Positions 18,392 to 34,293 of a DNA stretch of 36,637 bases are shown here, piece by piece. Where the stretch lies: contig NZ_JADWYU010000202.1 in NCBI RefSeq assembly GCF_016786325.1, forward strand, positions 50,036 through 86,672, read 5' to 3'. Both the position numbers and the translations under genes were made by a program. Every line of letters begins with the position of its first letter. Positions within the stretch are counted from its first letter, which is position 1. Origin of the DNA: Frankia nepalensis. Its GTDB lineage: Bacteria; Actinomycetota; Actinomycetes; Frankiales; Frankiaceae. The notes beneath the pieces were generated by a model that had not been told where the DNA came from, did not search any database, and was given only the letters and a program-made list of their open reading frames with translations.

Positions 18392-18468
18392 TGGTAGCGG
18401 GGGCAGGATTTGAACCTGCGGCCTCTGGGTTATGAGCCCAGCGAGCTACCGAGCTGCTCCACCCCGCG
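18392..18468 (-). tRNA. Initiator tRNA-fMet (CAU), copy A
   Basis: This 77-nt cloverleaf has an encoded CCA. The anticodon loop is CTCATAA. Initiator hallmarks are present: an unpaired C1-U72 at the acceptor end, three G-C pairs at the base of the anticodon stem (GGG/CCC), and A11-U24 in the D-stem (GAGC/GCTC). It differs from copy B by one base in the variable loop (AGGCC against AGGTC). Confidence 0.95.
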
Positions 18469-18687: not shown

Positions 18688-18764
18688 TGGTAGCGGGGGC
18701 AGGATTTGAACCTGCGACCTCTGGGTTATGAGCCCAGCGAGCTACCGAGCTGCTCCACCCCGCG
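18688..18764 (-). tRNA. Initiator tRNA-fMet (CAU), copy B
   Basis: This 77-nt tRNA has an encoded CCA, the same initiator features as copy A and only one base difference. The copies lie 296 bases apart in tandem. An intrinsic terminator separates them, so copy A needs its own promoter in 18469-18646. Confidence 0.96.
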
Positions 18765-33003: not shown

Positions 33004-33279
33004 CTAGGCGGCGACCACCTTGCGCGGGCGGCCACGGGGGCGCTTGTAGGGCACCACGACGCCGGTGACCACGAGCTCACCACCCCACACACCCCACGGC
33101 TCGTGCCGGTCGAGCGCGGTCGACAGGCAGGCAAGCCGGACGGGGCAGTCGACGCAGATGGCCTTCGCGGCCTCGACGTCCGCCGGCGACTCGGCGAAGA
33201 ACAGGTCGGGATCAGCGTCCCAGCAGGGCAGCGAGAGACGCTCCCGCTCGATCCGGGCGACGATCGAGGGGTCGAACAC
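33004..33279 (-). CDS. whiB7: WhiB family transcription factor, WhiB7/WblC type
   Basis: This 91-residue iron-sulfur transcription factor works with the housekeeping sigma factor to activate intrinsic antibiotic resistance. The four cluster cysteines are Cys19, Cys42, Cys45 and Cys51 (LPCWDADPDLFF, ICVDCPVRLAC). The turn is GVWGG (63-67), and the C-terminal AT-hook KRPRGRPRK is diagnostic for WhiB7. uvrD2 and AarF as neighbours match known whiB7 synteny. GTG 33279 is chosen because GGAGG lies eight bases upstream and the length matches the family. The GTG at 33333 lies in the attenuator T-tract and is unlikely. Confidence 0.94.
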   Translation of the reverse strand: MFDPSIVARIERERLSLPCWDADPDLFFAESPADVEAAKAICVDCPVRLACLSTALDRHEPWGVWGGELVVTGVVVPYKRPRGRPRKVVAA

Positions 33280-33324
33280 CGGTGTCACCTCCGACACAGG
33301 AATCTCTTCGGTGCGGTCAGAAGG

Positions 33325-33366
33325 GCAAAACACAAAGGCCGCGGTCCCCAGCGGGGTCCGCGGCCT
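33325..33366 (-). terminator. Attenuator: intrinsic terminator in the whiB7 leader
   Basis: On the minus strand AGGCCGCGG-A-CCCC (33366-33353) pairs with GGGG-A-CCGCGGCCT (33349-33336). This gives 13 base pairs around one A-A mismatch with a three-base loop, followed by TTGTGTTTT. It lies after the leader ORF stop and just before the whiB7 ribosome-binding site, the position of a transcription attenuator. Confidence 0.85.
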
Positions 33367-33425
33367 CGGGTTCGGGCCTAGGTGCCGGTCTAGACCGGCG
33401 GTTCCGTCCTGGACGGACCCCTGCT
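33350..33425 (-). promoter_or_regulatory. Antiterminator pairing of the whiB7 leader
   Basis: AGC-A-GGGGTCCG at 33425-33414, inside the last codons of the leader ORF, is complementary to CGGACCCCGCT at 33360-33350, the 5' arm of the terminator. That is 11 base pairs with one bulged A. Forming it prevents the terminator. A small hairpin (33403-33417, TCCGTC/GACGGA) competes for the same bases. A perfect 16-base palindrome (33384-33399) is centred on the leader ORF stop. These mutually exclusive folds are seen; the switching is inferred. Confidence 0.7.
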
Positions 33426-33986
33426 GCTTGCGTGGCGTCGGGCGTACGGCTGAATCGGGTTGGCTTGGGCGACGGCGGCCGTCTGGCGGACGGACTTCTC
33501 CTGTGCGGCCTGGGCGGCGGGGCTCGCGGCATGACGCGTCGCCATCCCGGTGGCCGGCTTCAGAGCCGACCAGGCGCCGAACGGGGCGTCATCCGCCAGC
33601 GGTTCCACCGACGCCATGCCGGTGGTCAGCGCCGGGGCTGCCGCCCGACCAGCGGTGCCGATCGGGGAGCTCCCCGCGGCCGCGCGCCAGATCGTCGGCT
33701 CCGTCATCCCCTCGCCGGGCATGGCGTCGCCTAGCACGGCATCGCCGGGCAGCGTTTCGCCGAGCCATGGCGACGCGAGGCCGAAGACCTCCCGGGCACC
33801 GAGTACGCCCCACGTGGCGGCGTCGACGGCGCCGGGCCGCCCATAGAGGGCGTCGGGCGCACCGGTCGTGCCGGGAAGGTCATTGACGAGGCCGCCGCCG
33901 ACGCTGGCCGCGCGCACGCGTGCGTGGGCGGTGCTCTCGAACTGGGCACAGCCGACGCCAAGGAACGCGATACGAATGTTGACCAC
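33390..33986 (-). CDS. 198-codon leader ORF of whiB7
   Basis: The start GTG 33986 has an ideal ribosome-binding site, AAAGGAGG, with GGAGG eight bases upstream. Codon use has the high third-position GC of real genes here. The product begins VNIRIAFLGVGCAQFES, is Ala/Gly/Pro-rich in the middle with no known domain, and ends ANPIQPYARRHASSRGPSRTEPPV. The stop lies in the palindrome before the attenuator. WhiB7/WblC genes are known to be controlled by a leader ORF whose translation sets attenuation. This one is unusually long, so it may also encode a functional protein. Function unknown. Confidence 0.65.
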   Translation of the reverse strand: MVNIRIAFLGVGCAQFESTAHARVRAASVGGGLVNDLPGTTGAPDALYGRPGAVDAATWGVLGAREVFGLASPWLGETLPGDAVLGDAMPGEGMTEPTIWRAAAGSSPIGTAGRAAAPALTTGMASVEPLADDAPFGAWSALKPATGMATRHAASPAAQAAQEKSVRQTAAVAQANPIQPYARRHASSRGPSRTEPPV

Positions 33987-34140
33987 TCCTATCGCCTCCT
34001 TTCGCGCGGCCGGACCGCCTTCACGCGGCCAGGCACCTGTCAGATGCGTGGTTCGTCCACCCAGAACGGCGGTGAGCCAGCCGGCGGCTCGCGACGAGCC
34101 AACTCAGCGTTCAGCGCACCTGCTCCGGTGTTCACGGGTA

Positions 34141-34178
34141 ACGGTAGGGGGACGTCCGGACCGCGACAACCTATTTTT
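34141..34178 (-). promoter_or_regulatory. whiB7 promoter, WhiB7-autoregulated type
   Basis: On the minus strand an AT-rich block (TATTTTT complement, 34172-34178) is followed by -35 TTGTCG (34169-34164), a 17-base spacer and -10 TACCGT (34146-34141). An AT-rich patch directly upstream of the -35 is the known recognition feature for the WhiB7 AT-hook acting with sigma A. The predicted start near 34134 gives an ~850-base leader. Apart from this promoter the 307-base gap 33987-34293 holds only the leader ORF ribosome-binding site and no other gene. Confidence 0.75.
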
Positions 34179-34293
34179 CGAGTCGCCCAGATGACACCCC
34201 ACGTGACCACCGACTTGCGCCAGCCGCGGCAAGCAACAGACAGTAGCGCTAGACGATCAGGCCGCCACCGGCGGGACGGGGCCGGCCGACTGG

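Follow-up and report, generated by a model that had tools for sequence, protein, structure and literature searches.

A 198-codon upstream open reading frame in a probable whiB7/wblC transcription attenuator of a Pseudofrankia-group genome

The whiB7 gene is a main switch for the intrinsic resistance of actinobacteria to ribosome-targeting drugs. In the stretch of genomic DNA analysed here (36,637 nt; hereafter the window), a sequence-only reading had placed a strongly initiated leader ORF of 198 codons between a WhiB7-type promoter (AT patch, -35, and -10) and an attenuator ahead of this gene, which raises the question of whether so long a leader ORF is exceptional and whether its peptide, its length, or only its frame and end position matter. 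The promoter and all the other elements were confirmed at their places on the minus strand (Table 1), in the order UvrD-like helicase gene, promoter, Shine-Dalgarno (SD) sequence, leader ORF (uORF), terminator, and whiB7. The product of the downstream gene is a WhiB protein (PF02467, E = 2.9e-16) whose C-terminus carries RGRPRK, which we take to be an AT-hook, and a whiB7 orthologue is present in all eight genomes of the genus. The home genome, from a relative of the nitrogen-fixing Frankia, is 10.7 Mb in size; by WhiB7, Pseudofrankia asymbiotica and Pseudofrankia sp. BMG5.36 come nearest to it among the best 80 of 161 matches from named genomes, with 95% identity. Promoter scores of at least 11 were obtained in 189 of 194 evaluated loci. 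The whiB7 start called mechanically, GTG 33333 (region 33323-33333), sits inside the U-tract of the attenuator, so that gene callers may add a spurious N-terminal extension to whiB7 here; a likelier start is GTG 33279, which follows GGAGGTGA, and a matching SD and start are also found in the Frankia-family loci L037 and L038. By its anatomy, i.e. WhiB7, promoter, SD-led uORF, terminator, and overlapping antiterminator, the window leader is very probably a uORF-controlled whiB7/wblC attenuator. A search of the window against Rfam at gathering thresholds returned tRNAs only, among them a pair of equally scoring minus-strand tRNA genes (18395-18468 and 18691-18764; 63.6 bits each), and a search of five whiB7 loci at E <= 1 returned only one sub-threshold match, to Pxr in L002.

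Table 1. Features of the whiB7 locus, with positions in the window.
Feature	Position	Strand	Remarks
WhiB7-type promoter	34141..34181	-	A-rich patch, -35 TTGTCG, 17-nt spacer, -10 TACCGT; TCGAAAAATAGGTTGTCG-N17-TACCGT
Leader ORF Shine-Dalgarno AAAGGAGG	33995..34002	-	8 nt before GTG 33986
Leader ORF (uORF), 198 codons	33390..33986	-	GTG start 33986, TAG stop 33392-33390
Antiterminator 5' arm CAGCAGGGGTCCG	33414..33426	-	inside the final 13 uORF codons
Small hairpin GCCGGTCTAGACCGGC at the uORF stop codon	33384..33399	-	RNA folding
Antiterminator 3' arm CGGACCCCGCTG	33349..33360	-	overlaps terminator 5' arm and loop
Intrinsic terminator hairpin AGGCCGCGGACCCC-GCT-GGGGACCGCGGCCT	33336..33366	-	GC-rich; U-tract next, 33324-33335
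whiB7	33004..33279	-	probable start GTG 33279 behind GGAGGTGA

Leader-ORF stalling that changes RNA pairing and thereby turns a resistance gene on would be a principle shared with the ErmCL/ErmBL-type macrolide leaders. Those leaders are short and depend on the peptide sequence, whereas the uORF body in the class of the window is under little peptide selection (see below). A uORF-mediated whiB7/wblC attenuator of actinomycetes was described by Lee, Lee and Roe (2022), as represented in papers that cite their study; for Mycobacterium abscessus, PMC10727445 identifies the whiB7 uORF as MAB_3509c. As far as these sources describe it, that attenuator has the same arrangement as the window (WhiB7-type promoter, uORF, Rho-independent terminator, and whiB7) and likewise forms its antiterminator from overlapping uORF and terminator sequences. 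In the ilvB1 leader of Mycobacterium tuberculosis, the position of the ribosome also selects the terminator or the antiterminator, and the sensor consists of four regulatory codons in a short uORF, according to an excerpt of PMC13236596; no conserved codon block of this kind was seen in the uORF alignments of three groups.

A WhiB7-type promoter and, at the same place, an SD-led GTG ORF were found in 8 of 8 genus genomes, which exceeds chance; the ORF ranges from 146 to 198 codons (198, 155, 158, 158, 160, 160, 172, and 146 in L002-L009, respectively), and in all eight the uORF frame contains no stop, while the other two forward frames contain 1-4 stops each. Within the genus, the ORFs align around their start and at the C-terminal SRGPS, and poorly in the body when subgroups are compared. 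Among 39 pairs from several families, all 60 indels in the uORFs were multiples of three (31 of them free gaps, as the ORF definition forces one such gap per gapped pair), compared with 8 of 52 in the 5' UTR. These pairs were retained from 48 listed after the removal of nine with less than 70% identity, including the pair of the window and L004; one of the 39 is identical, the pairs share lineages, and the ORF of the window is in none of them. In a 28-pair set, 21 of 43 gaps were free and none was frame-breaking. The window ORF, which is only 58-60% identical to its genus relatives, is absent from both sets; its gaps are all multiples of three relative to L003 and L005, but not relative to L004 and L006-L009, and we read these mixed gaps as unreliable alignment and count no support from them. 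Third codon positions are richer in GC than second positions in 157 of 162 loci and richer than both other positions in 128, and in the body of the window uORF their GC content is coding-like (0.86). From the indel pattern and the GC content by codon position, the frame of whiB7 uORFs then is under selection in the class, which is the usual sign of translation. What had been proposed as a leader ORF is a frame-conserved uORF that stops just before the whiB7 attenuator.

The length of the uORF was surveyed in genus, family, and class genomes and in named genomes (best 80 of 161 matches), which yielded 202 loci. After the removal of copies (L032-L035, named copies of genus genomes; L114, L122, and L125, identical to L036-L038) and of L111, L136, L144, and L175, in which the promoter scan was empty, 191 distinct loci remained. 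An SD-led uORF, picked by SD strength independently of its end position, was found in 179 of them, with a median of 92 codons, a 5-95% range of 58-159, and a maximum of 198, which is the window; 78 uORFs have at least 100 codons and 17 at least 150. Examples include those of Streptomyces sp. 150FB (116 codons), Actinocatenispora (134-143), and Kineosporia (90-96). Among the 12 loci without an SD-led uORF, seven have an ORF of ~54-77 codons that follows a weaker SD and stops 22-31 nt ahead of the terminator core, and in five, all MAG records, no uORF was found, four of these also being without a terminator core as search anchor. Apart from three calls under 40 codons, two of which look miscalled (L042 and L107, which have longer end-anchored alternatives) and one of which is ambiguous (L061, Glycomyces), the shortest called uORF has 48 codons. 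The expectation of short whiB7/wblC leader ORFs therefore fails, and 'unusually long' holds for the window insofar as its uORF, unlike those of the other whiB7/wblC attenuators, reaches the very top of the range; because long leader ORFs are normal for whiB7, this is the end of a continuous range and not a separate class. In the literature, the mycobacterial whiB7 uORF is called small in an excerpt of a 2014 paper (PMC4128351), and whiB7 leaders in actinobacteria are described as typically long in an excerpt of a 2023 paper (PMC10727445). Length is also labile, with in-frame gaps of 75 and 120 nt between relatives at 88-89% identity and a span of 91-169 codons inside one genus-level group. Tandem duplication was considered as the origin of the extra length in the window and rejected, a single 19-nt repeat with a period of 9 being found.

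The position of the uORF end is much more uniform. In 160 of 177 distinct loci with both elements, the distance from the stop codon to the terminator is 5-45 nt, with a median of 22 and an sd of 4.2, while the sd of uORF length among those 160 loci is 93 nt. In the window, the terminator starts 23 nt past the stop, and in L006 and L007 the stop directly follows the antiterminator arm. The exceptions are 15 Glycomyces loci, L057 (MAG), and L061 (Glycomyces). The called uORF in 15 of 21 Glycomyces loci (L048, L049, L050, L052, L054, L056, L060, L063, L064, L066, L067, L069, L082, L083, and L099) runs through the terminator, its stop lying 47-211 nt past the start of the terminator 5' arm; five others have the usual stop and one is ambiguous (L061). 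In the covariation set, 65 loci picked by the analyst from 163, 99.4% of the cells of the terminator are paired, two-sided changes occur at 6 of 11 pairs, and the covariation score was matched by 0 of 500 shuffles. RNAalifold found the terminator alone in the 65-locus alignment and nothing when the alignment was truncated. The attenuator terminator (AGGCCGCGGAnCCC...GGGnTCCGCGGCCT) is conserved over the 65-locus alignment A2.

The competing structure was examined in 163 loci, a set that includes the three copies L114, L122, and L125. Stretches of 7 nt that are perfectly complementary to the terminator 5' arm cover 0.14 of the positions 21-30 nt before the stop and 0.00-0.06 in the other bins. 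In a duplex test of a 34-nt segment placed so as to end 8 nt upstream of the stop, the offset that performed best out of 51 (the loci are not independent), native arm pairing was -26.0 kcal/mol vs -20.2 kcal/mol with partners swapped from other loci, and the native partner was better in 146 of 163; other segments of the same leader average -18.2 kcal/mol, with 375 of 2924 as good as the arm. A wider duplex test with the last 63 nt barely discriminated, as 572 of 2015 own-leader segments were as good and the native one was best in 47 of 163. Covariation of the antiterminator in fixed columns was weak (matched by 34 and 39 of 500 shuffles, and a -1 slide scores higher), perhaps through an additional base that puts some families out of register. 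The 34-nt segments ending 28-48 nt before the stop pair more weakly with the terminator arm than those upstream (-15.4 to -16.7 vs -17.2 to -19.2 kcal/mol; 163 loci), as if competing pairings were avoided directly upstream of the antiterminator arm, base composition being uncontrolled in this comparison. The RNA of the window, when cut in the terminator loop before the 3' arm, folds into the antiterminator AGCA.GGGGUCCG : CGGACCCCGCU (-45.2 kcal/mol; z = -3.6, equalled by 0 of 200 shuffles), and the complete RNA adopts the terminator fold (z = -2.5, equalled by 1 of 200). The small hairpin at the stop codon is present in the truncated fold and in the full-fold centroid, but absent from the full minimum-energy fold. 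The strongest pairing in the group of the window uses the terminator arm together with the loop (CGGACCCCGCUG), which sets this group apart from the known whiB7/wblC attenuator.

The window thus very probably carries a uORF-controlled transcription attenuator of whiB7/wblC with a long uORF, in a genome of the Pseudofrankia group. RNA polymerase would start at the WhiB7-type promoter, and a ribosome would load at AAAGGAGG. When the 198 codons are translated without delay, the ribosome would arrive at the stop 23 nt before the terminator, where it would cover or disturb the antiterminator arm in the last codons, so that the terminator forms and whiB7 stays off. When the ribosome stalls or slows down upstream, or is absent there, pairing of the arm CAGCAGGGGUCCG with CGGACCCCGCUG would block the terminator, and whiB7 would be transcribed. 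The peptide would be largely a by-product; the parts retained would be the start with its SD, the reading frame, the place of the stop, and the RNA arms. This reading draws on the anatomy, the conservation of the frame in relatives, the weak or absent selection on the peptide, the complementarity, and the alternative folds, all of which were observed directly; judging from published work on relatives, the uORF is probably translated, drugs would stall ribosomes on it, and the switch would work in the direction given. Undisturbed translation of the uORF leads to termination and stalled translation to the antiterminator in whiB7/wblC, as stated in excerpts of PMC11550727, PMC10727445, and PMC13393426. 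Points that weigh against the attenuator reading are the mixed gaps of the window ORF, the pairs with purifying selection on the peptide, the weak fixed-column covariation of the antiterminator, the poor discrimination of the wider duplex test together with the choice of offset in the narrower one, the stop placement in L006 and L007, the Glycomyces uORFs that run through the terminator, and the five loci in which no uORF was found. The idea that a long uORF offers many stalling positions would be compatible with the data.

Four other readings were weighed against this attenuator. That the uORF encodes a second functional protein, made together with whiB7 and contributing to resistance, as the sequence-only reading had suggested, would agree with the long ORF, its strong SD, and its coding-like GC3, and with the 7 of 28 pairs in which the body pN/pS is below 0.5 (0.10-0.47), indicating purifying selection on the peptide there; because of these pairs, some lineages may keep a peptide constraint. 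However, the pooled pN/pS of the body over the 28 pairs is 0.88 (660/4218 vs 299/1680; single pairs 0.10-1.69). Nei-Gojobori counts overstate this ratio in GC-rich genes, and whiB7 of the same genomes served as the control: in the same 16 pairs from the genus and its sister group, the body ratio is 0.40-1.46 vs 0-0.26 for whiB7 (undefined in one pair), the two pairs with the window giving 1.28 and 1.17. Purifying selection on amino acids like that on an ordinary gene is thus not seen, and the p-distance of the body (0.163) is similar to that of the 5' UTR (0.133). The window uORF has no match in Pfam or NCBIfam at E <= 0.1, a search of its home genome at E <= 0.001 gave a single match, and with a working terminator the uORF RNA would be made while whiB7 is off. 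A second protein is accordingly very improbable, and selection on the uORF peptide appears to be weak or absent. The window uORF itself looks nearly peptide-agnostic, with a constrained 3' end. The first 12 codons align by eye within the genus, but in the 28 pooled pairs this part evolves like the body (pN/pS 0.85, pS 0.174); no N-terminal constraint is therefore claimed. The residues at the C-terminus, the part in which the sequence-only reading had called for a comparison with relatives, are indeed the best conserved of the peptide (SRGPS.TEPPV in the window), and W[SG]PPV-like ends recur in many other families, as would be expected of a specific arrest peptide that senses particular drugs in the manner of ErmCL. 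Synonymous change, however, falls to 0.069 (22/320) in the last 14 codons vs 0.178 in the body (28 pairs), which argues that the 3' end is constrained as RNA; since these codons also form the antiterminator arm, the conservation of the C-terminus is at least partly at the RNA level. Moreover, the peptide ends differ from group to group, the PP count is at the level of shuffles (83 vs 86), and the +X+ motif ([RK]x[RK]), presumably the macrolide-arrest motif, is above shuffles (185 vs 130; ratio to composition expectation 1.41, vs 1.13 in neighbouring proteins) yet sparser, at 1.22 per 100 residues vs 1.47 in those proteins. The body pN/pS of 0.88 likewise speaks against regulation through a conserved peptide, and at the C-terminus conservation of the peptide coincides with that of the RNA. 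An arrest at this point would place the ribosome on the arm itself, and an arrest peptide seems improbable.

The two remaining readings concern the extent of the ORF. A different, shorter ORF might regulate, such as one of the leaderless type that begins with a GTG 5 nt past the -10 in the window and has 31 codons. A GTG or ATG is present at that spot in 6 of 8 genus genomes, but the ORFs have 31, 8, 8, 32, 27, and 8 codons, are missing in the other two, and end far upstream of the terminator, so that such an ORF is hardly to be expected as the regulator. More credible, though still rather unlikely, is that the same switch acts as a length-tuned sensor of ribosome progress, the extra codons being selected for delay or drug trapping so that it answers weaker inhibition. 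A body that is nearly free in sequence and locked in frame is what would be expected if only transit counts, the shortest called uORF (the three calls under 40 codons aside) has 48 codons, and all 32 members of the three aligned groups have at least 90. Against tuning, length shifts freely among close relatives, and drift under a frame constraint would give the same picture. The lability among close relatives speaks for drift, and the floor of ~48 codons speaks for some requirement.

Setting these readings beside the uORF-controlled attenuator, the kind of attenuator is known, and what is new for the window is that it is the longest member in the sample. New for the class are figures that set constrained anchors apart from a body nearly free in sequence and locked in frame; this split was not found stated in the whiB7 literature surveyed, in which Lee et al. 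2022 is represented by citing papers alone, and no priority is claimed for it. The survey sets the fixed parts of the leader (SD and start, frame, stop position, and RNA arms) against the largely free ones (peptide and length), a division that tells stalling on one particular peptide apart from delay anywhere along a track. We tentatively suggest, as a possibility well short of an even chance, that whiB7 uORFs as a class may be peptide-agnostic, frame-locked tracks that meter translation over 50-200 codons and not at a single stall site, with length setting the gain, in which case the leader of the Pseudofrankia group would be the most sensitive known. The window contains the longest natural track in this survey. 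If true, the track reading would explain the response of whiB7 to mechanistically unrelated translation inhibitors and to starvation.
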